A stretch of DNA of 64,000 nt, taken from NCBI GenBank assembly GCA_950022655.1, contig OX465579.1:40837950-40901949 (forward strand). The letters run 5' to 3'. The notes below the pieces were generated by a model. It was not told the origin of the DNA. It worked only from the letters and a program-made list of their open reading frames with translations, and searched no databases. The DNA is from Alentia gelatinosa. Taxonomy: Eukaryota; Annelida; Polychaeta; Phyllodocida; Polynoidae. A program made the position numbers and the translations under genes. Positions within the stretch are counted from its first letter, which is position 1. Every line of letters begins with the position of its first letter. Below are positions 7,156 to 35,806 of this stretch, one piece after another.

Positions 7156-7727
7156 GACTCGTCGTGGAAGTGCGGGCGAGTGGTGCCCATCCCAAAAGAG
7201 GGAATGGCCCATTCTCACGGAACCAGTGATATATTATTTCTATTCTGTGAATATCATCTTGAACGATTATTTGTATATGGTGTAGAGAAGATAAGGTAGG
7301 TGAAATTTGAGATTGTCTTACGTGGATAGTTAGTTCAAACATTTCTAACCTATTATGAATAATACATAAACATTATAGGCCATGACTATAGGCAAGGTGG
7401 TGGTATCCCATAGTACTTTACTTCAATAGCTTATGGTCTAATGTCAATGTGAAAAAAATAGTGGGCCCTCATTGAAAATTGACTCGAAATATCATGCTGC
7501 GTGGATCATGCTACGTGGATCGTGCAATATTGCCATATTATCGGTCTTTTCAACTTAAATGGTCAAATTTAATACAGGATATCTCCTGCCCTGACTATGA
7601 ACATAGGATACCATAACCAACGACATTTCTCACAGATCATCAATTTCCTGCTTGCCTGCTTACAGGCATCGGGATGCATGTGATTAATAATTGTACCGCA
7701 TATTTTTGACATACGAAAACAGTTAGC
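7156..7727. other. Unassigned non-coding DNA
   Basis: No coding signal. A short reiterated motif, (t)gctRcgtggatc, occurs near 7497-7530 and recurs at 8726, 8887 and 9271 (inverted). Confidence 0.5.
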
Positions 7728-8127
7728 CAATACTTAGTGACCTTTCTTGAGTGACCCTTTCTGAGTGACACATACTAAGTGATACATATTTAGTGACCCT
7801 TCCTGAGTGATGCATACTAAGTAACCCTTTCTGAATGGCACAAACTTAGTGACCGTTCCTGAGTAACACATACTAAGTGACTCTTCCTGAGTGACACATA
7901 ATATGTAACCCTTCCTGGGAGACACATGCTGTGTGACCCTTTTCTGAGTGACACATACTGAGTGACACATACTGTGTGACACATACTGTGTGACACATAC
8001 TTAATGACCCTTCCTGAGTGATACACACTAAGTAAACCTTTCTAAGTGACACATATTTAGTGGCCCTTTCTGAGTGACACATACTTAGTGACCCTTCCTG
8101 AGTGACACATACTAAGTGACCCTTTCT
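7728..8127. repeat. Minisatellite, degenerate ~14-bp/28-bp units
   Basis: About 400 bp built from alternating blocks gtgacacatacta and agtgacccttcctg with frequent substitutions. Open frames on the minus strand through it are by-products of the periodicity, not genes. Confidence 0.9.
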
Positions 8128-8264
8128 GTAGTGTAATGCGGAGCATTATACCTGTCCCTGGTACCCGTCCCAACCAACATGGGTCTGCTACTGCCCCCAC
8201 CTGCAAAGGGTTAAGAAAAAAATATCAATTTTTTTTCCAAATTACTACTTATGTCTCGTGTTGT

Positions 8265-8520
8265 CAACCTTTTCTTTATAATAGAAACACAGAATTGTTG
8301 GGGGTTTTTTTTGGGGGGGGGGGGATTTTCTTTATTTTGGTGAAATATCCACCTAGCACATTCACATTTCAATGCACATATGTTCTCTGAACCCTGGTGA
8401 CCACAGTTTTAACATTTAACTATTACTATTTCAGGAAAAGTTGACCCATACAATAGACACTATAACCACATATCAATTTTTATCTTCCTCTAAAATTTTT
8501 ATTTTTGCCCCCCTAAGGTC
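8265..8520. repeat. Diverged direct repeat, copy 1
   Basis: Shares a colinear block with 9185-9440: gtagcac-like motif, cacatttcaatgcacay, ccacagttttaRYatttaacta, tatttcaggRaaagttgac, atagacactatRaccacat, then an A/T block and a C run. Both copies contain a G tract and a terminal poly-C. Spacing is about 925 bp. Confidence 0.75.
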
Positions 8521-19765: not shown

Positions 19766-20576
19766 AATAATATCATCACGCAATCAACAAATGGCCCTAC
19801 AGAGGTTGCAATTCCAACCATGACCCTGATCAACTAAGGAGTGACTGACACACCTCCTGCAGATGCGTTCGACTTTGGGATTTACCATGGTCGGAACGGC
19901 TTGGTCTTCGCTGGAGATAAATCATACCTTAGCTATTTTCATCACAACCCACTCAAATTGAACATTGGGACACAGGGGGCAACTCCCATCTTCTCCTTTG
20001 ATAATGCAGAAATTGCCTACCAATATCTTTACGCAATTACTGTGAATGACACCGAAACTGCTCGCAAACTCTTGAAGTGCACAGACAGCGGACACGCTAA
20101 AGACACGAGTAAATTGATTAATCCAAAAGGCTCAAGATGGTCATGAAGGCAAAATTTGATCAGCATCCCGCTTTCCAAGAAAAGCTGAAACGAACACATC
20201 CGTTTAACCTGCTGGAGGGCACGCTGGATCCGTTCTGGGGTGCCGGCTGTGACTTCGATATCGCCCGCACATTGCATTGATTCTCTGGTTTGAACACATG
20301 TGGTGCGCTGTTGGTCCAACTACGCCAGGACTACCTTGTAGCTTGATTAGTTATCGCTGCCATAAATATGGCTGTGACCTCATAGTTGGAGACTCGCGGA
20401 TTCGTTTTGCTATGAGTGCCGCCAGACATATTCCCAAAGTGGTGGACTGTTTTATGTTCGGGGGAGCCACAATGCACCAACTAGGCCTTCATGCAGTAGA
20501 CATTCTTAAATATTTCCAGGAGATTCGCGCTGTGTACATACTTGGCGGCATTTGCAATTTGACTGTTAAAGACCGG
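19761..20576 (+). pseudogene. Coding relic with NADAR and SGNH-hydrolase domains, left part
   Basis: The plus-strand frame from about 19761 has TAA at 19835-19837, then NGLVFAGDKSYLSYFHH and FDNAEIAYQYLYA (NADAR N-terminal half, about 19880-20035). After a frame break near 20137 come VMKAKFDQHPAFQEKL and LDPFWGAGCDF (NADAR C-terminal half). A third frame (20277-20576) holds VGDSRIRFA (SGNH block I), CFMFGGATMHQL (block II-like) and YILGGICNLT (block III-like). NADAR proteins handle ADP-ribose or N-glycosyl riboside substrates; SGNH proteins are esterases. The same order continues at 31673, beyond the Harbinger insertion. It may be an accessory ORF of a retroelement (SGNH domains occur in some) or a cellular gene relic. 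Confidence 0.65.
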
Positions 20577-20815
20577 GGCCCTGTTTTTTAGTCACGACAT
20601 TTGTAACTTGCGACACTTTAAATGCCTGAGTGTGCTATAGACATACGATATTCGGGGTGCGCCCACTGACCCTAGGGATACGACACTTATGCCGGTGATA
20701 GGTGTGCTATAGTCACGACCTTTGTAGAAGAAAATGTCCGGCAAAAGGTCTGATCTCACGACATCTATAGACATGTCGTATATGGGTTTGAGACATAATT
20801 TCAACGGTATCCAAG

Positions 20816-23641
20816 ATGGCCAATTTTTTACGGCGACCACGTAAGCGAAAGGAATATCGGCCGAGGACCAATCCTCTTGACGTTTTTGATGACGATACGT
20901 TTATGCGACGTAACCGAGTTTCCAAAGATATCGCCCGGCAACTTTCTGAAAGGTTTAGACTTTCCGGTTGTTGTGGAAGCGATATAAATATACGTCGGGG
21001 CTTCGGAATTTCCGCGGAGGAGAGGGTGAGTAAAAACCCGCCCATAATATCTCCTTTATCGCTCATTTTGTCATGCTATTTTTTATGATAATAAAATACC
21101 TGTGTTAATTTCTATAAGTCCAAAAAAATGTGTAATATCTTTAATATTCTTCAATTATATGCAATAGCTTATATGGTTTATAATGGTATAGAATTCTATA
21201 TAATCTAGAGGAAGCCTATGAAACTGTTGGGTCTACTATGTGTATAACCCCACCTACTATCGTTTTATAAGTAGTTATAACTTATTTATAGTATTGTATG
21301 CCTTTTACTTGTCGTATAGAGCACGCCTGTAGAGTTTATATATCTTTAGAATGGACGTTCTAAAGGTTATAAAAAACGTTCCTGATTTTATTTCATTAAC
21401 GAAAATTTTAACAAATAGGTTAAATCCAATAGAGAATTGACATGCAATTATTTATCACTTGCAGATGTGCCTAGCCTTGCGGTATTTTGCAACCGGGGCT
21501 AATTACAGCCTTGTTGGAGATTATCAAGGTGTCAGCAAGAGTACTGTCAGCAAGAGCTTACATGAAGTTTTGAATTTTTTTGACCAAGTTATAGATGAGT
21601 ACATTAAAATGCCTAAGTCCATAGAAGAATTGCAGGCATCTTCACGTCTATTTTTTGAACGCTTTGGTGGGAAACCTATGGTTGTGGCCTGTGTTGATGG
21701 TACACACATTCCAATACTCGCTCCTCGCCAGAATGAGGTGGACTTCGTCAACCGTAAGGGGTTCCACAGCCTCAATACTATGGTGATTATATAATTTATG
21801 TCACATAGGCTAACAATTTGTTCTTATTATATATGTACAGTTACACTTTTTCTAAAATCTACACGCATACTTGTGTAGTTATGTACATCTAAACATTCTG
21901 TTTTAATATCTAGAGGACTCGCCCCTGTGATACTCTAATAACTTAAGGAAATATAGCAAACATCAACCAATTATTTATTTTTTCCAATTAACCTATTCAT
22001 ATAATAATGCTATTTTCCGTTTGTGTCTGCCACTTCTGGAAAGCAACCATTTCACCGTACATGTTATTACTATTGCAGATAGTTGCTGGAGCAGACAAGA
22101 TAGTATACTTCGTAGACCCCGGTTACCCCGGAGCTGTTCATGACAGCTATATACTACAATGTTCTGATGTTTGGGATGAGGCTGTCGCTGGTAGACTTGG
22201 CGAATACTTTCTCCTTGGGGATTCTGGGTAGGTTGCTAAAATTATATAATTATAATATCATAACTGTTTATCGACTTTTCTTGACTAATTAATTAAATAT
22301 TTCGTATTTTAACTAGGTACATAAGGGTGTATGATTCATATTATTTTCTGCAAGTAGTAGGGATACACGGTACCTTGTGAAGTCATTTTTTTACGGAGGG
22401 TTCCATAAATTTAGATATTCTATCAAATTGGGTTAAAACTCTTATTAGCTTTATTTTAGATGACCAAAATTTATAAAAAATGTTATAACTTGTTTGCCAC
22501 GTTTATTAAAAGTGTTGACTAAAATTATTCTTTGCCAGCTATCCCCTTACTCCATTCCTATTCACACCAATACTGAATGCACAGACTGAGGAGGAAGAAA
22601 GGTTCAACCGATGGCACATGGCTGCCCGGGTCGTTGTAGAACAGACCATAGGATTGATAAAGCAAAGATTTAGGTGATTACGTTTACATATCGTTATAAA
22701 CTATTCATAAGTTGTGCAACTAATAAAAAACCACACAGTATAATTGCTATTGCTACATAACGTTTATTGTTTCTGGTGTATATTAGTCTTAACAGAGTCC
22801 ATTTCTTCTATTTGCTGAAACTCTACAAAAAGAAGATAAAATAAAGTGTATCTTGTAAACATGTACTGCGAGGGTCCAGACGGTTCTACACTATACAGCT
22901 TTTTTGCTTTGTGCTTCCTTCCAAATGGATATTGACATATATAAGTTCACAAGTCATGATGCTTGTTGATTTTGCAATAAGTTTTCAACAGTCAAAGTGG
23001 TTTACTTTTTGTTGTTGTTTATAAAGAAAAATATAATAACCCTACTTATGGTATCGCTACAGGAATAATGTCTCGCATAGTATACCCTTACCTAGGTCTA
23101 TACGCATCTACAAATGATTTGCGTTTTAAACACACACTTCAAAGACACCTGGTAAAACTTAATCTATATTTATTATTTACGGTTCATTAGACTTAAACAG
23201 TTGTTTGTCCGTGGAACTAGGCAACCGCCATTTCTCCTAGGACTGTTCCGTATACCATCAAATTGTGTGATGCACTGTAAGGCGGTCGTCTCTGTACTAC
23301 GACATAAATTGCCAAAATAATAGTATCCAAATATTGTTACACTTATGATAATCGTAAACCTAATATTTTTATTGGCAGATGCCTTGACCGCCACGGGGGC
23401 TACTTGTACCATAGGCCCCCGCGATTGTACGCGCATAATCACTGTGTGTGTGGCCCTGCACAACATGTGCATAACCGGAGGTCTACCACTGCCGCCTGAG
23501 GAAGATGATGAGGGAGGTCCTTTACCTCAACGGCAACGTGTGCCTCCTGGAAATCCGAATGGGCCTCCACCTCGACCGGGGCAGGCTCATCAAGAAGGCC
23601 GAGCAAGAAGAGGCCGCTACATTGAAACGCATTTTCTATGA
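20816..23641 (+). CDS. Harbinger DDE transposase, 5 exons, one frame break in the last exon
   Basis: Exons by splice signals and phase: 20816-21025 (donor gtgagt), 21465-21782, 22079-22227 (gtaggt), 22539-22673, 23379-23641. Product about 358 residues. Exon 1 is basic (RRPRKRKEYRPR). Exon 2 has the HTH-like region GVSKSTVSKSLHEVL and the first catalytic Asp in CVDGTHIPILAPRQNEV. Exon 3 has VHDSYIL and the second Asp in LLGDSGYPL, completed across the exon 3/4 junction. Exon 4 has the catalytic Glu in VVVEQTIGLIKQRF. Exon 5 starts RCLDRHGGYLYHRPP and then must change frame by one base to reach RIITVCVALHNMC. The change lies at or near the C run at 23416-23420. Either the gene is freshly broken or the run is miscounted. 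It cuts and pastes the element in the nucleus. Confidence 0.88.
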
Positions 23642-24172
23642 ATTGCGAAGAACTTAAATTTTTTTCTTGATTAGAAAGTGGCCCTTAACACTCATCTTAC
23701 ATAAAAGAAAGTTTTTAGTCTTCTGTTAGACTTTCGAATTTGTCTTAAAACTAACTAGAGGAGACTGAACACTTTGGCTGTATTGAGTTGCCAATTGAGG
23801 TACCAAAACGTACAAAGCATATGTGAAATAACTAAATAAAAATGCTGTTTTACTTACATAAAGTTTTCGTTCTATACAACATTGTAATTATAATGAAAAG
23901 CTATTGATCATTAAGCTAATCATATAGTTTCTCAAGGACATATCAGTATCGTAGGTTTATTGTCTTCTAACTGACAAGAATAATATAACATGGACTTAAA
24001 TACTCTATAAAAACTATCAATTTCTGCATCTCATCTTTGCTCTCTTGCTAAATGAATGTATTTTGTTATACTGTGCTTAACAGGTCAAATCAACGAGTCT
24101 TTGATGACTAAAATAATAAAATATATAGTGGACGCATTTAACAAAGTAATAATATCAATAATATTTATCTGT

Positions 24173-27100
24173 TCATATGTCAAATAACTGTTTTGGTAGG
24201 CGTTGACGTGTGGACTTTCGTACCTCGATATCTCCGATCCTCCTGATATTTTCCGTAACCTTCTGTTTTGTTTCTAAAAATAGAAAGTACATAATTCTAT
24301 ACAATTTGATTCCGATTTAAACAAGGTAATACAAATTAGTTATTTCTGAAAGAACTTTAAATGGAATAGTCCGAACGATAATGATGACAGGGTAGAAGTG
24401 TTAGTGAAATAAGAAATATTTTTTTAACTACTGTGTTCATTGACTTATAAATAAAAAAATATTTAGGCCTGTACAGTGTCTATATCAAGTTAAATACATA
24501 CTGTTTTTATAATTTCTGCTCCTACTGGCTTTTATCATATTAAATGATATGAACTGCTATCTTCAATAAATTATAAGTATATTGGTTATACACATTTTCT
24601 CTCATTATTATTAAAATAATTTGGTTTCCGTTCTACTCACCTAGTTTTTCCGGAATAACTTTCGAGTTGCCACGGACTATGTTTTCACAACTGTCTGTGT
24701 CAGTGTCTGGTGCTCTAACAGATGCTGCACTTTTGTCTTCCAAATGACTTTGGTTGGCATCAGAAGTGTTGCTGTTTTCACTGAGATCATACAATTTTTC
24801 TTTGAGCTCATCTATGTCCTTCCTCATTTTCTTTATTTCTGCGTACATATCAACCATAGCCGTTGAAGAGGTTTTAACGCAAACTGTCCTTAGAATATCG
24901 CCTAATTTAGCAATTTCAGAGGCTATCTCATTTGATTTGGGTGGGGAATGATTTTCCTCTTGTTGAGTGTAATTCACATTGTAGTTACCATTCGTTTTCT
25001 GAGTTTCAGAACTGTAGCTGCCATCAGAGGTCAACATTGCCAAAGCTGTAATAGCAAAATATCCATACATTATGATTTAATTTTATTTTCTTAACTATTG
25101 TTTAGAACGTATCATATATTATTTTCTCCTGTAAAAAAAGCATTGAAAGGTCGTATGATAGGTATAGCATTGGTCCTATATTTGTGTGTGATACACACCT
25201 TTACTTTCTTATAATTTTGTAGTAAGACCTTAATAACGTCTTAATATGTTCTCTTATGCTATTCAATGGTTATCTAAAATAAAATATGAAAATAAATTCC
25301 CGTCCGTAGCTAAAGCAATAACCTATAATTTTTTTTTTTTATTGACTAGATATAAGGTATAGAGTAAATATGTTAGATTCTTACTGTTTTGTGATAATGT
25401 AGGATTTTCATGCGTTGCAATAACCCTTACATCCGAGACATTAGAAGACTGTTGACTCAGATCGCTACTCGAGAACACTTTGTCATACGAGGTTGGAAGC
25501 TGTAGTTTCAACTCGGGTAGAATAGAACTAACATCCGTATAGGCGGTTGATACGGTTTCACCTGTACTTTCCAGTACCGCCACTTTATCTCCTAGAGATG
25601 AAACATTTACAAATTTGATTGTAAATATTATAAAATAACTACTTTGTTATGATTCTCGGTAAAGAGTGTTATATAACCTATTTTTCGAAGTGTTTTTTAT
25701 ACTATTAACCAATCTATTTTCTAAAATAAATTTTAAAACCGGTTATATTATTTTTTATGTATGTGTTACTCTGTTTAAACAGTTATTTAAAGCATAACAT
25801 GTAATCCAAAAATGTGAACGTCTTAAATTTTAAAGTACATTATCATCTCTGGTTATAAAAATGGCAGTAAAATAAGTAATGTAATAAATTTTGCTAATAT
25901 AGGAAACTTTACCGGGTAGAAACAAATCAGAATCCATGGTATGCATCGCTTGGTCCTCTATGTTTGAAACTAGGGGTATTAACAAAGGCCGTTTCAAAGG
26001 TGGTTCTTGATTAGCTGTTACAATAGATATATTTATAATATTTAATTATATCCTATAATGAGGGCAATAGAAACTAGTAAACGGAAAGAATAGAAATATT
26101 TTCACATATATAATAATAAACTGCACTATTAGATAGTTGTATTTCTTAACACATCCAGATCTAGAGATATTACACATTATTTTAGAATTATATAGTCATT
26201 ATTAAATTGTCTTATGAAAAAAGGATGCTTATTGAGGCTTACCGCATTCCTCATCTTGACTGAGGCTCACTTGTTCTCCCTGAAGGTCAGAGGAGAGACA
26301 GGTCTTAGCTCGTTTCTTGTTGTGTTTATCCTGTGAAATAATTTTGCTTTGCTCTTCCTCCATTTGGGCTTCCTTCAGTTCTCTACGCAGTGTCTCAACT
26401 CTACTTTCTCCTTTCACTAATGGTTTCGTTTGGTTATTCGCCAGGAATGAAGGCAATTTCAGGTCATCGGTTAGTGAAAGTACCGAATTACGAGCGGAAG
26501 AGGCAGACAGGTCAGAGGAAGATTCAGACACAGAATACCCCGATGCACCAGTATCCGAGGGTAGTGGAGAAATAACAGATGAAGGTGAAGATATATTTGA
26601 GGAAGTGTCAGACATGGGAGCAACCGAAACTGTAGCAGAGCAAGAAGAGGGTTTAGAGGTATTTTTTACCAAACCAGACGTATTAGGGCCTGGGGTAGAA
26701 ACAGGAATAACTTTTTTTTTTGTTTTTTTCCTAGTGACATCGCTGTCAATCAACTCTTCAGTATCTAAATTCTCTTCTGAGCTAACGTATGGAGCGGTAG
26801 TCTTATTTCCACATCCGACTTTTCGTGATCCGGGTACACCTTTAAAATAAAAGAGTAACGAATTCCATAGGTGTTTTTGCAATCTATGACTTTTTTGGAA
26901 CATTAAACTATGTACAGTGACTAACGATTAATAACGTAATACCATATTTTGTTATATTTTGATATCAATATATTAATGTCTGTACATGTTCACATTTTTG
27001 TAAAATTTGTTACCTGTTATAGTTTGCTGAGAAGAGTACTGCAGTGCTAGGTCGTCAATATCTGTCAGTTTTAATCTAACGGGAATCGGACCACTGCCTG

Positions 27101-30100
27101 TCTTCTTCATGTGTGTGTTTCTTTCCCTCGCCTTCATAAACAAACAATAAAAATAGAACCCTAATTTTTTTTATTATATTTCTATTGTGTTATGACTATT
27201 AAAAATAAAATTATGGAAATATGTCAGGAAATTTATGCTTTTATTCTTATATTTAACGGTCCAGTATGCAATCTATAGACAGCATCATAGGCTAATCATA
27301 CTACCCCTTCACAGAATAATTCACATTGGGCAATTTGACGAATAGTGCAATTTTTCTATAACAAATAATGAATAATTTATCAAATATTCTTATGGCTATA
27401 ACATAAGTAATGATTAATAAGAAAAACTAGTCTTCCTAAAATATTTCTGTATATTACCCGCGTTAGCGGAAACCCTCCGTTCATGGTCAAATCTTATACC
27501 TACGCGCGATGTCAATTTTCCCTAGATAAAAAATAATATCAAATATAGGGAACCGTTCTGAGCGAAGGTTTCCGTTAACACGGGTTGACCGCTTACGCGG
27601 GGGACCGTTAGACGGTGTTCTATTGTATAGCATAATAGAGAAGCATTGTTACAATGTATTACAGTTTAAAAAAAAGGTATTAACTTTGGCATCCTCACCA
27701 TGGGTTCTCCTCTGCAAATAGTACGCCTTCACATTACACACCAAAGGAGATGGTCACTTAAGAAATAGATGCATATCGACCCGTAGACGCATCTCGTCCG
27801 CCTAGGCCGAAGACTTGTGAACGTGTTAGTGGCGCCACCTTGCGTTTCTTACAAACATATGCAGCGGATCATGACGTTAACATTTCCGAGAACGGGAACG
27901 TTCCGAAGTAAGAAGGTGAGTTGTTTATGGCTTGCTTTAGCGAAATATGAGCACTTCATTACTTAATAACGAGTATTATATAAGTAGTAATATGCATTTT
28001 CATAAGAACTATGTTATGTGTTAGCATCAATAAACAATTAAGAGGGAATATGGTGTCGCACTGATGAACGTCACTCAGTATGATAAAGACGCTAAATTGG
28101 CCCGCATTCCACCCCTCTCTCCTATTTCAGGTCACAGGTACATAGGTATGACCTGTAAAACAATGGGAATACAATGTATTTCACTATGCAGCCAACTATA
28201 TTTTCTAATCATAAGACATAGTCGGTGCTGTGATATAATCGAAATACCCACGATATGAAGCCGTTAGATCTCTGGTAAGTGCGGTACGCCAAGCCAAAAA
28301 ATCAGTTGGGTCTATTCTGAGATGGTAGGTGACAGATAGCAACAAACCATTGTCGGCAAGTGGAGACAGGTGTGACAAATGTAGAGATATTGCCTAAAAT
28401 AAGATTAACAAACATATAATATACATTTCCGTAATTCTATCGGGAAAAAAAATGGAGGTATTGCTACAGACTAGTCAAGTCTGTGACCCATAACAAAATG
28501 TGGAAAATTCTTATAGATCTAATTAGGTGCCTTGTTTAAACAAGGAAGCAAGTAGCATAGAAGTTGTTAACATGTATGTTTATATTTTCAAATCTACATA
28601 GTGAAAAACATTGAAATTTTTTTTTTTTCCAGTGTAGCTATGCCGTACAAGAACCCTTCATCGGAAGAGACTAAGAGAAAGAAGGCAGAAAGTGCTAGAC
28701 GCTGTTATGCACGAAAAAAAGATTCCAAAGAGTACAAGGCACAGAGGAAAATGTATAGAGAGGTAAAATTTAAGGCTATTGATGGATACATTCTAGGAAT
28801 CGATGTAGTGCATGTTGGGTGACTTTGCAAGGGATATAAAATGTTAAATATATTAACATTTGGTGATACTCATCCTAATTGTAAGCTTCCCTAAAAATTT
28901 ATACTACGAAATAAGATGAGAACAACTAAACTATAGGTGTGCCTATATTTAACCCTTTATTTGTGAATTGTGTTATACTATACGAGGCAGTTGGCCACTA
29001 ATAAACATTTCCGTTCCAGAGATATGCACATACTCGGAAGAAGGTGGGACAACTTAATGAAGATGAATTACAAAAGAGGCGATTACAGAAGAGGGAATGG
29101 GCGCGCATACACAGGGCCAAATTAGCCGAGGAGAAAAAAAGAACAGGTATCACAAGTGTTATTGTTTATTCTTATCATACATGGTATATAAGCAAAGTAA
29201 TCAACTACCCAGTTCTCCCACAAATATGCTGTAAAAACGGTTCAAAATATACTGTTGATATATCTGGTTATTAAAAGTAACACCTTTTCTATATCATGAA
29301 GTGTAGTTATAAACAAAGTGAAAGCGTTAACCCGATTTTTAAATCCTTCAATTGTGTCAGATAAATGCAAAACACTTATTAAGAGATAGAAAAGCTTACA
29401 GGAAACAAAAAGCATTTCTATTTGAATATATGTTTGTGAAATCACTCTATCATATACTATTTTGAATATGCACTTTCTCAAGTGGAAGTCTGAGACACAT
29501 TGTCTTATTTTATTTAGCCCAACCGGTAGCTGGCCCCTCCTGTGAGAATAACCCAGATATAGATGACAATGAATGTGAAGAAGACCTGGTAGAAGACTCT
29601 CCAGAGCAACAGCCATTGCAGACGGTGGACCCACCGAAGAGGAGTTATAAGAATAAGGGCAAAGGCAAAAAAACCACCTGCAGTCCTCAAGACAGTGTGG
29701 CAACTAGGTAAGTAATTATGTTCTACATATATCAAATTTATGAAAAATTGCACAATTTGCCATATTTGTGCAGTCCAACACTGATGAATACACTATGCTA
29801 TGCAGGAGAGTGTATTCAGATTACACAGTCAATGAACAAAGGATCCATTTCAGAAATAACTACTGAACACCCAAACAGATGAAATTATACATGATTTTTT
29901 GGTCTCATTATTTCATGAATTAAAGGCCTGTTCATTGAAATAAACGGTGCAAATTATTGTATATAATTTACAAGATATTCCTATTTTTTTGTGCTTTTTT
30001 ATAGGACTCGTTCACACACTGTTTCACAAAGAAAAGAAGAGACACAAGAGGTGGTTATGAAAGGGCAAGAAGAGGACAGCAGGATGAGTCCACGCACCAA

Positions 30101-31037
30101 ATTTGCCTTTGCCCTTGGTTTACGACGAGTGTTCCCTTCAAATAAGTGAAAAAAAAAAAAATTTTAATATATCTATATCTATTTTTTCAGCCATTTATCA
30201 GTTAATATATATCAGAGACTTCAACAATATACACTACATCAGTTGTTGTAATAATGTGAAAGCTTTCTTGCTAATTATATAGTCTTAATATGCATGTGCA
30301 ATCGTTAATGAAAGTATCAGTATTAAATTAAACAACTGTTATAAATGAATATTATGTTTTATTATCATTGGCTTTTGACAAAATCTCGCACATAATTAGA
30401 CTAAAGATAGCATTAATGTAATACCTTAACTATGGCTAAGGATTATCCATTGTATTAAACTTAACCTGATTGACACCAGGTAACCTAACAGAATATGCAC
30501 CTAAGTGTAAAAGATTACTTTATATTCGAAAATAACCTTATTACTTACACGTTTTCTGGCCTCGGAGAGGAAACAAATTAACTTTTTGCGGCATTCACCC
30601 TCGTTTCGAGATGTGAATGAGACTAAATTAATACGGTCTGAAACGGTATAATAATGATACATTACTTAAGTATTAGGGGATACACGCTTTCCTAATGGAT
30701 TACATATTATATTGCAGTAATTCGTTAAATGAATGATATTAACAAGACAAGAAACTATTGATTAGTGTTAAAGGTAGAGACCACTGTCTTTATTACCAAC
30801 AACTCGTTTCCATGCTTCAGCTTTCTGACGTCTCGTACCACCAATACCAGTATGTGGGGCTTTCAATATTGGCTTTTCCTCTAAAACAGCACTCAAAAGT
30901 GTATGAGTTTGTTCGTGCGTCCAATTATTACGCCTTCTGCCTTCATCTCCGGCATCGCGACCTCCCTTCGGCTTGGCAGTGGGCCCTCCTGCTTGTGATC
31001 CACCGGGCCCCTCACAGGGTCCAACCCCAGAAGCCAT
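24173..31037 (-). CDS. Harbinger Myb/SANT-like protein, 8 exons, 619 aa
   Basis: Minus-strand exons: 31037-30797, 30637-30549, 27131-27014, 26839-26243, 26014-25913, 25591-25385, 25045-24641, 24273-24173. All introns are GT-AG, phases match at each junction, and the summed length is 620 codons including the stop, so the gene looks intact. Residues 1-150 carry a Gly/Pro-rich leader, then a SANT/Myb-like DNA-binding region (NNWTHEQTHTLLSAVLEEKP, AEAWKRVVDRINLVSF, ECRKKLICF) and KKTGSGPIPVRLKLTDI, typical of the Harbinger partner protein. The centre is Ser/Thr-rich with a KKTKKK cluster. The C-terminal part has a heptad-like coiled coil (YAEIKKMRKDIDELKEKLYD). In studied Harbingers this partner binds transposon ends and brings the transposase to the nucleus. 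That role is inferred here. Confidence 0.82.
27461..27632. mobile_element. Degenerate pogo-like MITE, left end missing
   Basis: The right end (ttacgcgggggaccgttaga, then ggtgttctattgta) and the left interior (cccgcgttagcggaaacc) match the inverted-repeat units of the MITE at 9897-10112. The left terminal bases are not recognisable. It lies in intron 2 of the Myb-like gene. Confidence 0.6.
27770..27915 (+). promoter_or_regulatory. CpG-rich putative promoter and 5' UTR exon for the nested small gene
   Basis: Locally GC- and CpG-rich DNA in an otherwise AT-rich transposon interior. It ends in a consensus donor (aagaag|gtgagt at 27916) that would splice to the acceptor at 28632, just before the ATG at 28640. 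No TATA box is evident. Inference from position and splice signals only. Confidence 0.4.
28640..30149 (+). CDS. Third Harbinger-borne gene: small basic protein of unknown function, 4 exons, 194 aa
   Basis: Exons 28640-28762, 29020-29146, 29518-29707 and 30005-30149, joined by GT-AG introns of matching phase, give 195 codons with one stop at the end. A 5' untranslated exon probably ends at 27915 (aag|gtgagt), because a strong pyrimidine tract and acceptor (ccag, 28629-28632) lie eight bases before the ATG. Residues 1-85 are extremely basic with two Arg/Lys blocks (SARRCYARKKDSKEYKAQRK and KRRLQKREWARIHRAK) like a DNA- or RNA-binding helix. The middle is acidic (NECEEDLVEDSPEQ) and is followed by a lysine-rich nuclear-signal-like patch (YKNKGKGKK). 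I do not recognise the family. It lies wholly within intron 2 of the minus-strand Myb-like gene. Confidence 0.72.
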
Positions 31038-31672
31038 TGTTCCTGTAATATAGTTACATAGATGTTTTAAAAATTCTTCTAAATACAAAAACTATTTCTA
31101 GAATACAACTTATATATAACAAATGCAAAAATTTTTACAATAAAGGATGACAGGGAGTAAATATTGGAATTGCTAGCAACTATGTACCCGGTACTATTCG
31201 ATCTCTTTCGGTGAGCGATAATAGGAAATAAGGAAAATAAACAACTAAATATACATTTTAAACGGCAGAATGTACTGTCACGCTTTCGTATGTCAGTCGT
31301 TTTGGTATATTTGTACTACACACTAAAGGTTTTTCGAAAAGGAAGAGATGTGTGAACTTTTATTTACCCTTTTAAGTATAACTATAAACTCCAAGCGTGT
31401 GGACGATGTAGCAACGTGTTCGGGCGATAATAGAAGAACATCGACCCTTCTGCAGTTGAAGCTGGTACTTGGCGATAGAACAGACATAGAACTTGCGACA
31501 TTTCTATATCTACTTTTATTTAAGACACTTTTCACGCCGACCTTTCCGGGCGCGCTACGACATCGTCTATAGCACACCCGCCATCTTTGGTCTTAGAATT
31601 ATGTCGTAAATCACAGATACCTTCTTAGACTTGCGACACTATAAAAGGTCGTGACTAAAAAACAGGGCCCGG

Positions 31673-31935: not shown

Positions 31936-32945
31936 TGTAACCGAGACTCATCTTTGAATACACTTATTCTTAAGGTTTGGATCTCAGCCTGCAACATATA
32001 GGTCGTTAGATCTTATCTGTATTATGATTAGTCTGTAACAAAGACCTACCATCCTGACATCAAGGTTAGCACACATGTCCCAATGTTATCACCTCAGCAT
32101 GCAACATAGGCTGTTATCTCATCCTCGTTCGTTGATACATTGCTATTTTGTCTTTGATTGTTCTCTGATTCTTGGTTGTGGTGCCTGTAACTTAGGCCTG
32201 AACAACTAGGTTCCTCAGCTATTACTATATCACTATTTTCCTTAGTTGATTTTTGTCTGTAACATAGACGACCCATGGCGTTACTGGATATTGATTCTCT
32301 CTCTTTCCCAGACGAGGTTATTGGACTTGCTCAAGAGATGTGCACTCGGTCCATTATGCTCGATTGCTTATTATAATTCGCTGATTAAAAAGCACTTATA
32401 TTATATGATTGTCCTGCTCGTATTCTGTAACTCGGATCAGCTGGGACTCACTTACTGTGCAAGTCTAATTGAACAAGTTGGACGTTAAACTACCCAAACA
32501 AACAAACTTACTGTGCTCTCCAAGCCTGGATATCTGACGTATCCCAGTATAAATCTGTAGTCTACTTAATGTTTTTCAATTACATATATTTTACTGGAAA
32601 CTAGAAAGTAATTATGCCTTGCTGGGGGTCACTCCTGTCCCTCGTATATTTTTTTGAAAATCTCTCTTACTTCTTCCCAAATTCCTATCTTCATCTATAA
32701 CTACTCGACCTACTACTGAAGTACTGGCCGAGCAGTTCGGGGCAACTCATATTCAGATTATGGGGTGCTCTTCATTATCTCACCCACGGATATCATTATG
32801 GCATAGTACACTTGAATGTTTTCATATCATGTTTATTATGCTTTTCCAAAAAGATATTGAGTTATGTTAGAACTATCAAGTAAAGGCTTGAACATCATTT
32901 GGGCAAAACATACGCAGTCTCCATTCTAAACTGTCTGAAGTCAAG
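31936..32945. other. Non-coding DNA upstream of the second non-LTR element
   Basis: Contains two imperfect copies of cagcMtgcaacata (about 31986 and 32096). A short open stretch from ATG 32275 (33 codons) has no recognisable domain. It may include the 5' part of the retrotransposon. Confidence 0.4.
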
Positions 32946-35806
32946 ATGGCATTCTGTGGGGCCGACTTTGTGTGCCTTACCGAAACGCTTCTTCATGCGG
33001 GCTACACGGATAACATGTTACACTGGCAGGGTTACCGCTTCTTCAGGCTAGATCGTGCCATTGGCACCTGGGGAGGGCTGGGTTGCTATGTCATAGATAA
33101 ACTTGCGCCATATGTCTCAGTTAGGTATTATCTATGTATCACAAATGAGGATCATGAAATCTTAGTTCTACTTGTGAGTAAACCCGGTTTCAGAAAGAGG
33201 TGTTTCATTACATGCTACAAACCCCCTCCTAAGTCTGCACGCATATTATATGATAAACTGATTGAGATCCTGATGTATCGAAATGTGAAACTTGGATAAT
33301 TGGTGATTTGAATGTTGATCTTAAAAGGACTAACACTACAGACTATCGCTTAGCACAAAACTTTATTTGGACTACGGGAATGTTACAACATGTTAAAAAT
33401 ATCACCAGACCCAACCATGCTGGTGGGACCTTGATAGATCACATCTACAATGTACACACGTAAACCATTGTATAGTTATGACCAAACTTCTAAGTGATCA
33501 TCATCCAACTTTGGTAAATAGAAAGTTTGAGCACAGATGTAGGAAAACGGCATCCTTCCAAGGATGAAGCTACAAAAACTTTTGATTTTGGTCAATTTGA
33601 GACTTCTCTACTGGAGCTTGACTGGTCGACCTTTTATAACTGTAATGATGTCAACCAGATGTTGGATATACTAATTGGGGCTGTCACAAATATTCTGGAT
33701 GTCCATTACCCGATACGTAATATAGATTTTCACGATGCCAAGCCTCATTGGATGAGTAAAGCTCTACTCAACCTAATAGCCCATCGGAGAGATCTAGTAA
33801 AGCACATGAGACGAGGTCGACACCAAGAAATTTTACGAGAGACCAGACAAATCTCTCGGGAAATAAGGTGGCGTATAAAAGCCAAAACAAGTGCTTATTG
33901 CAAAGCTAAACTGGTGGAGGCCAAAGGACAACCACATACATTTTGGAAAATCATTAATGAAATATTAAATCCAGTCGGTAAGGTGGTCCAGTGTGAGATT
34001 TCCCAGAATGGTTTCCTTGTTGAATCGTCACAGGTAGCTGAAGTTTTCAACAATTTTTTCGCTACGATCGGAAGCGAATTGTTCTGTAACCTAGACCAGT
34101 CTGGCTTCGACCGTCTGACCAAATATTTAACCCTCATGGACAATGTTTCTCTTACATACCCTGATATTACTGTGAATGTGGATGAAGTGCTCAAATTGAT
34201 GAATAGTGTGGACTGCCAGAAATCCAGTGGAATTCCTTTTTTTAGAACCAGTGTTTAAGTTCATGTTTTAAAATTCCTGATCAGGCAACTAACAGACCTC
34301 ATTAGTACCTCACTGCAAACACAAGTTTTCCCCTCCTTGTGGAAAACTGCGCTAGACCTTACTTCAATAAAAAAAGAAATGGAAGCCGATTTCGCTTTTG
34401 ACTCTTTTGTTTATGACCTGCTTGATAATGCAAATGTGCTTCATTACCTGCAATTCGGATTTCGTCCGAATCGCAGTACTGCGGATGCAATCTTTTATTT
34501 CTTGAAGGACCTTTACTCTGCGTGCAGGAAAGGCCATGTTACAGTATGCTGTTTCGTCGACTTCAAGAAAGCGTTTGATTCCATCCACCATGGCTTACTC
34601 TTGCACAAACTCAGGAAATTCTAAACATGCCCGACAACATCGTCGGCTGGATTAGGAACTATCTAACTAATCGTTCGCAGTCTGTCATTACTAACAGCAC
34701 CACTTCTCGCCCTGCACCCATAACTTTTGGCGTCCCACAGGGATCGGTATTGGGTCTGTTGTTGTTTCTACTTTCCATAAATGACATCGGGAACTGTCTC
34801 AATAAAACGCGTCACCTGCAATATGCTGACGATCTGTATGCGAGCATGTATATGAGCGTGGACCCAAACCATGCTATATCAGATCTCCAAGTTGACATCA
34901 CGTCTCTCGGAAACTGGTGTTGTGCTAATGGTCTCACGGTTAATGTATCTAAAACCAAGGTTATGTGGGATGAAACTGTTCTAATTTTCAAGAAATGTCT
35001 ACCCCTTGATGTAAAACTGTTGAATTGCCAAATTTCTGCTTGTTCCAGTTACAAATATCTAGGGATCATTATTGATAGCAATCTCACCTGGTCCTGTCAG
35101 GTGCAATCACTAGTATGGAATAACAACGGTCTTTTATCTAAATTTGGTAAACTGCAGAGATCCCTGACCTTCGACATGACCAGACAGATCTATCTGTCAA
35201 ATATCATGTCTCTTTTTGAATACTGTGCCATCTTGTTTGACAGTTACAAAAAAACAGACCAGCAGACTCTAAGAGAAATTGCACAATCGCGGCTTGGGAA
35301 CAGTATTAAGTAAACCTTGTCGTAACCTATCAATAGCTAACCTCCATGAAGCTTGTAAAGTGACCCCCTCTCTGGAAGCACCGGAAAATACAACTCCTAA
35401 CCATAATGTTCAGGAACAAGTTTAACAATAGTTGGCTGGATCCATCAGAAAGGCGTACCCGTTCTGGGGACAAAATCAACTTTATGTTAGAAATCACTCG
35501 GATTTCCACAGTCCTAAGGTCACCCTAGTATCGTGGAGTCAAGGACTGGAATGCACTCCCAGCTTCAGTCCAGAAAATAACTGACCTAAACAACTTCAAA
35601 AAGGCTTTGCCTGGACTTATCTAATCTAATTGTCTCAGAACCCATTACTACCTCATCCTTCACTATCCAGCCGTTATTGGTTGTTCTTGTTAAATGTTTT
35701 TTTACTCTGCTGTTATTTTGCTAAACCCAAAGAAATGTATCGAGCTGTACCGACGAGTATCTGAAAAACTCAGGGTTCCTGAGAGATGCTTTAAAAAAAA
35801 AAAATC
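32946..35806 (+). pseudogene. Non-LTR retrotransposon ORF2 (endonuclease + RT), broken
   Basis: AP-type endonuclease blocks: DFVCLTETLLHAGY (about 32965), GGLGCYV (33073), and in another frame IIGDLNVDLKR (about 33297). The connecting domain is open from 33527 to 34258. RT: FGFRPNRSTADAI (34457), CCFVDFKKAFDSIHHG (34548), FGVPQGSVLGLLLF (34725), LQYADDLYAS (34818). The C-terminal region WNALPA...NNFKKALPGL ends near 35624. A tail runs to a poly-A tract at 35793-35804. The arrangement fits the Jockey/CR1 group. Stops and frame changes occur at about 33297, 33470, 34258 and 34624, and the region that should hold the first RT block (YRPIS) is deleted between about 34360 and 34400. Inactive. Confidence 0.85.

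Follow-up and report, generated by a model that had tools for sequence, protein, structure and literature searches.

A third gene nested antisense in the Myb-like partner gene of a Nuwa-like Harbinger transposon clade of the polynoid annelid Alentia gelatinosa

The mobility of PIF/Harbinger transposons is described as needing two element-encoded proteins (excerpts of PMC2836001, PMC4482050 and PMC12730594), with two open reading frames in the PHIS groups and one in Spy (excerpt of PMC4482050). An element of this type lies in a stretch of 64,000 nucleotides from contig OX465579.1 of Alentia gelatinosa (the whole stretch is called the window here), and inside its Myb-like gene four exons on the opposite strand appear to encode a further protein. 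This raises the question whether the element carries a third gene and, if so, what this gene does. We are virtually certain that it is a real third gene of one Nuwa-like PIF/Harbinger (PHIS) clade, inherited with the element in antisense within the second Myb intron and maintained by purifying selection; its status follows from its structure, its recurrence, its antisense position, its link to one part of the Myb tree and the constraint between families. The features of the window are as follows, with positions counted from its first letter.

20574..20576, strand not applicable: target site duplication CGG, left
20577..31669: Harbinger-type (Nuwa-like) element, family A, 11,093 bp, defined by its inverted ends and the flanking CGG
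20577..20602, plus strand: left terminal inverted repeat, the inverted-repeat arm trimmed by one base for the duplication
20816..23641, plus strand: transposase gene, five coding exons, from exon matches
24633..31037 (approximate span), minus strand: Myb-like partner gene with start codon at 31037, from open frames and matches in families B and C
about 27132..30548, minus strand: intron 2 of the Myb-like gene, read by eye
27829..27915, plus strand: probable 5' leader exon of the third gene, its 3' end being a GT donor and its start undefined; block shared with family B
28640..30149, plus strand: third gene, four exons, antisense within intron 2 of the Myb-like gene
28640..28762, plus strand: coding exon 1 of the third gene, 123 nt, 41 codons
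29020..29146, plus strand: coding exon 2, 127 nt
29518..29707, plus strand: coding exon 3, 190 nt, with the acidic middle and the lysine patch; the most variable exon
30005..30149, plus strand: coding exon 4, 145 nt, with the motif SPRTxFAxxLxLxRV and the stop
31644..31669, minus strand: right terminal inverted repeat, the arm trimmed by one base
31670..31672, strand not applicable: target site duplication CGG, right

Before trimming, the arms of the family A element (20576-20602 and 31644-31670) are 27 nt each and 96% complementary. The element ends read GGGCCCTG, where the first G is possibly part of the duplication, leaving GGCCCTG. In Pfam the joined exons 2–4 of the transposase matched DDE_Tnp_4 (PF13359; E 8.6e-27, 94.1 bits, cut-off 24.8), and the Myb-like gene matched Myb_DNA-bind_5 (PF13873) with E 0.00091 and 19.6 bits, which is under the curated cut-off of 21.7. 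Aligned to families B and C, which are described below, the last coding exon of the window transposase (23360-23470) has one additional base, so the window copy may be non-autonomous, though its third gene is open. Between the transposase and the Myb exons a block of 51 bp (24172-24222) is 84% identical in families A and B and matches no assigned exon. The frames adjoining the element at 32892-35313 on the plus strand, with a reverse-transcriptase-like YADDL, presumably belong to a non-LTR retrotransposon.

The sequence-only reading had joined the four exons into a gene for 194 amino acids, and this holds: the exons sum to 585 nt, the introns are GT-AG with phases 0, 1 and 2, a single stop ends the frame, and the gene lies on the plus strand inside intron 2 of the minus-strand Myb gene. 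The charge pattern described for the protein was also found, with basic residues at 11-40 and 61-80, an acidic stretch at 91-110 and a patch of lysines at 121-140; families B and C show a less marked acidic middle. Only in part could we follow the suggested 5' exon ending at 27915, as the region 27829-27921 aligns to family B with 75% identity and has GGTGAGT at the donor in both, while no significant match was present in the other families. When the Myb introns of A and B are compared, the shared blocks are this leader and the four exons and nothing else. Upstream of exon 1 (within 1.5 kb, in the window at about 27831) the sequence GGCGCCACC occurs in five of 18 loci, with 0.025 expected from a mononucleotide shuffle, and looser forms (GGCGCCA or TGGCGCC) occur in ten of the 18, a count made without a control. 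Such an element could possibly be a promoter or start-site motif.

A DNA search of the same genome identified a diverged copy on C11 as family B, and matches of exon 1 in five places as a third family, C. The expectation that other copies would keep the frame was thereby confirmed, since in B and in all five C copies the four exons of the third gene are uninterrupted and have the phases seen in A. Among the C copies its length differs by in-frame steps only, and in B exon 3 is longer and the frame closes four codons after ..LQRV. In the aligned blocks one of the five C copies (L010-L014 with L016-L020) is at least 97.9% identical to the remaining four, repeats apart; with five near-identical copies all open, the third gene has thus travelled along in a recent burst. 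A transposase accompanies the third gene in each of the three families where it was mapped, A, B and C. At the four C copies with both ends read the duplications are CTG, CAG, CTG and CAA (the latter in the C9 copy), and for the fifth copy (C1) the ends were not found. Family B (L009 and L015) contains stops in its transposase and Myb segments, of which four were matched, and its third gene is open. Two further observations concern the C copy on C12 (L017 and L011 joined): a 99-bp tandem repeat of 7.7 units is located between the transposase and Myb genes (7687-8452), and about 0.87 kb (2056-2921) matches both family A ends, with A-type ends abutting C-type ends head to head, and looks like a short non-autonomous derivative.

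The same gene structure thus recurs in other families, which is more than chance would give. The five full-length proteins, which show 39-65% identity to the first, have GKGK, RTR and SPRTxFAxxLxLxRV in common, and exon phases as well as the C-terminal motif are kept down to about 39% protein identity. In 14 N-terminal sequences the common residues are M1, P2, Y3, K15, R20, Y23, K26, K27, K37, Y39, Y43, A44, K48, L53, W68, A69 and R73. AlphaFold2 models, for which exons 1 and 2 were folded separately, predict two helices for exon 1 (8-27 and 30-40; mean pLDDT 83) and one for exon 2 (14-41; mean pLDDT 89).

To see how the gene is distributed, the host genome of 1.23 Gb, in which the genes are spliced, was scanned with both proteins. 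The third protein gave at least 67 exon matches, at least 32 of them to exon 1, and the Myb protein gave at least 156 matches, 150 of which were listed; both numbers are lower bounds, the best candidates having been scored. The Myb matches listed include 89 to exon 1 and 49 to exon 3, and pairing an exon-1 match with an exon-3 match on the same strand within 12 kb resulted in 46 paired and 43 unpaired exon-1 matches. Among these listed pairs 30 hold the third gene in antisense and none in sense, and 16 are without it. Two of the 30 carriers share one exon 3 (tandem units, C1), leaving 29 independent ones. Seen from the third gene, 30 of the at least 32 exon-1 matches are located inside Myb pairs on the opposite strand, and the other two have an antisense Myb exon 3 no farther than about 3.2 kb away; none of them is therefore accounted for by the 43 unpaired Myb exon-1 matches. 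As no exon-1 match among these at least 32 lies away from Myb genes, a capture unique to the window copy, which the sequence-only reading had named as a way to be wrong, is ruled out.

From the third-protein search 15 further distinct loci were read and six of them extended; not all exons of all loci were covered. L029 and L048 (overlaps), L039 (a tandem partner without an exon-1 match) and the loci belonging to A, B or C (L021-L025, L031, L033, L037, L044-L047) were left out. All 15 show antisense Myb exons and an exon 1 of 123 nt followed by GT, and two have a stop in a coding exon (L038 in exon 1, L043 in exon 2). L030 contains exon 1 twice in tandem, 615 bases apart (1501-2238). In L035 and L040 exons 2 and 3 read as a single exon, and either intron loss or an older state could account for it.

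The pairs without the third gene are also informative. Among the matches listed, the span of the Myb pair is below 1.5 kb in 11 of these 16 and 2.2-8.0 kb in the carriers. Twelve of the 16 were read: three have clear remnants (L057, L059, L062), one a doubtful fragment (L061, E 0.024) and eight no clear trace, showing that the third gene is not needed by every relative. In an unrooted Myb tree of 37 genes (25 carriers, with family C as one tip, and the 12 negatives; about 116 columns) seven of the eight genes without a trace form one group with a support of 0.884, and the eighth, L063, is placed beside a decayed carrier (0.954), a position that looks like loss of the third gene. Supports are partly low, down to 0.19 for one pair within the trace-free group, and with the tree being unrooted a single gain and a single loss on the opposite side are equally compatible with the topology.

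It had also been proposed that the frame should show a dN/dS below 1, and between families this is the case: for A and B the ratio is 0.247 over 189 codons (bootstrap 0.14-0.38). The transposase core, at 0.040, is far more constrained than the third gene, and the Myb gene has 0.173 in its first exons and 0.295 in its later ones. Of the 153 differences between the third genes of A and B 80 are at third codon positions, and the synonymous distances of A–C and B–C are saturated. For exons 1 and 2, ten pairs with pS of 0.38-0.65 gave ratios of 0.08-0.29, and pN was smaller than pS in 149 of 153 pairs, which are not independent of each other. Very close copies showed no deficit of nonsynonymous changes in the third gene: the C copies differ per pair by 0-3 synonymous and 0-3 nonsynonymous changes, L027 has ratios of 1.27 and 1.49 to L028 and L032 with few changes, and all changes are nonsynonymous in L026-L038 and L028-L032. 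The family-level ratios are low but those of close copies are not, and hence the third gene is under purifying selection between families, a constraint that is not seen within recent bursts.

Profile and structure searches with the third protein, which had been suggested as a check, revealed no convincing relative in Pfam, the PDB or a large protein collection. Pfam gave no profile match over its cut-off for the full proteins of A, B and C, and for the 14 N-terminal parts scattered weak matches (best E 0.0073, in one of them) with no family in more than two; no enzyme domain was found in this search. Nothing better than E 0.73 was obtained from the PDB. The large protein collection contained no relative at E ≤ 1, a weak negative as short spliced exons are possibly poorly represented there, and an equally weak one came from a scan of viral_contigs. 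Nothing was found in favour of a bZIP-like basic region or a phage-type 'YKDP' module. The third protein is an unclassified protein family and as such adds to transposon biology.

What might this protein do? There is strong support for a third component encoded by the family, and the second half of the original proposal, nucleic-acid binding, fits the composition of the protein together with its predicted helices. We infer that its function is most likely that of a nuclear DNA-binding accessory factor; for gene and mechanism taken together we see somewhat better than even chances. The basic, helix-forming N-terminal 83 residues (exons 1 and 2) would bind element DNA, the C-terminal SPRTxFAxxLxLxRV could contact the transposase or the Myb partner, and through these contacts the third protein might assist assembly at the element ends or tune activity. 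Being nested, the gene would be hard to lose without harm to its Myb partner, and the two transcripts might interfere with each other. A bolder version, which we hold only tentatively, would have the clade run on three proteins, the third being a novel DNA-binding protein outside the known classes, which would license or control transposition or act against silencing, as an antisense-locked built-in switch.

Other explanations have to be weighed against this. Short exons (41-63 codons) and splice sites that are easily found could suggest chance reading frames joined by eye, but the agreement of exons, phases and splice sites across families that are 39-65% identical, the recurrent open exons in antisense Myb context and the excess of differences at third codon positions refute this idea, to which we give practically no credence. 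A captured host gene or a passenger without a role for the element has precedents, since two or more other Harbinger lineages carry extra genes such as TET or SET (excerpt of PMC12730594); it is nevertheless highly improbable here, with the gene kept under constraint in many diverged families and none of the at least 32 exon-1 matches lying away from Myb genes, a count in which divergent host genes could be missed.

Two alternatives concern the role and not the existence of the gene. It might mainly regulate its partner, antisense transcription or the product holding down the Myb-like gene and so limiting transposition. The strictly antisense orientation in all 30 carrier pairs listed and a leader and promoter that would sit in the intron of the partner speak for it, but transcriptional interference alone needs no constraint at the protein level and one ancestral insertion equally explains the fixed orientation, and we consider it unlikely. 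By analogy to VANC of the plant VANDAL elements the protein could instead be an anti-silencing factor that binds noncoding DNA of the element and counters host silencing. A basic protein changing faster than the transposase (0.247 versus 0.040) would suit this idea, and such a rate would likewise agree with a protein recognising the rapidly evolving noncoding DNA of its own element; sequence-specific anti-silencing proteins are on record (excerpts of PMC10398659 and PMC5735166), with the 99-bp array of one C copy as a possible target. Against it stand the lack of likeness to any named family in Pfam and the result of TRF, which at its threshold found no tandem array in A or B, and we regard it as quite unlikely. 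A DNA-binding accessory factor thus remains our preferred reading. Elements with and without the third gene coexist in one genome, which makes its role directly testable.

How does the element compare to known systems? In the open-licence literature no third open reading frame and no nested or antisense gene in Harbinger was found, nor did a term search of a teleost Harbinger paper (PMC9179366) return one; Repbase is outside this scope and may hold a prior description. FMBP-1 with its STPR domain of tandem 23-residue repeats is similar in being basic and helix-forming with acidic and hyper-basic stretches (excerpt of PMC4821344), but exons 1 and 2 of the window protein have no significant internal repeat of 22-26 residues (shuffle p 0.35, 0.12 and 0.28), and an STPR domain is therefore not supported. 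VANC of VANDAL (MuDR) is likewise an accessory protein of a DNA transposon (excerpts of PMC10398659 and PMC5735166), but belongs to another superfamily and another host kingdom and is likened to our protein by description, not by sequence. Closer are HarbingerS and the fungal PHISTA, Harbinger relatives with an additional gene; their extras, in the SET-bearing HarbingerS and the TET-bearing fungal Harbinger, are SET or TET/JBP enzymes plus a further protein (excerpt of PMC12730594), unlike the third protein with no enzyme domain found.

The closest likeness is to Nuwa, with a DDE_Tnp_4 transposase and a probable Myb-like gene, inverted ends starting with GG or possibly GGG and 3-bp duplications mostly of C..G type. 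For NuwaI, CWG duplications and ends usually starting with GGG are described (excerpt of PMC4482050), and of our five copies with both ends read three fit (CTG, CAG, CTG) but the C9 copy of family C (CAA) and the window copy (CGG) do not. Nuwa families are stated to 'encode two proteins' (excerpt of PMC12730594) and are described with two open reading frames in about 4.5-4.7 kb, in contrast to the 9-11 kb of the elements described here, which in A, B and all five copies of C have the antisense-nested third gene. Compared with the two-protein description of PIF/Harbinger mobility, this clade has kept a third gene through many families, and it adds a stable antisense-nested gene arrangement to transposon biology.
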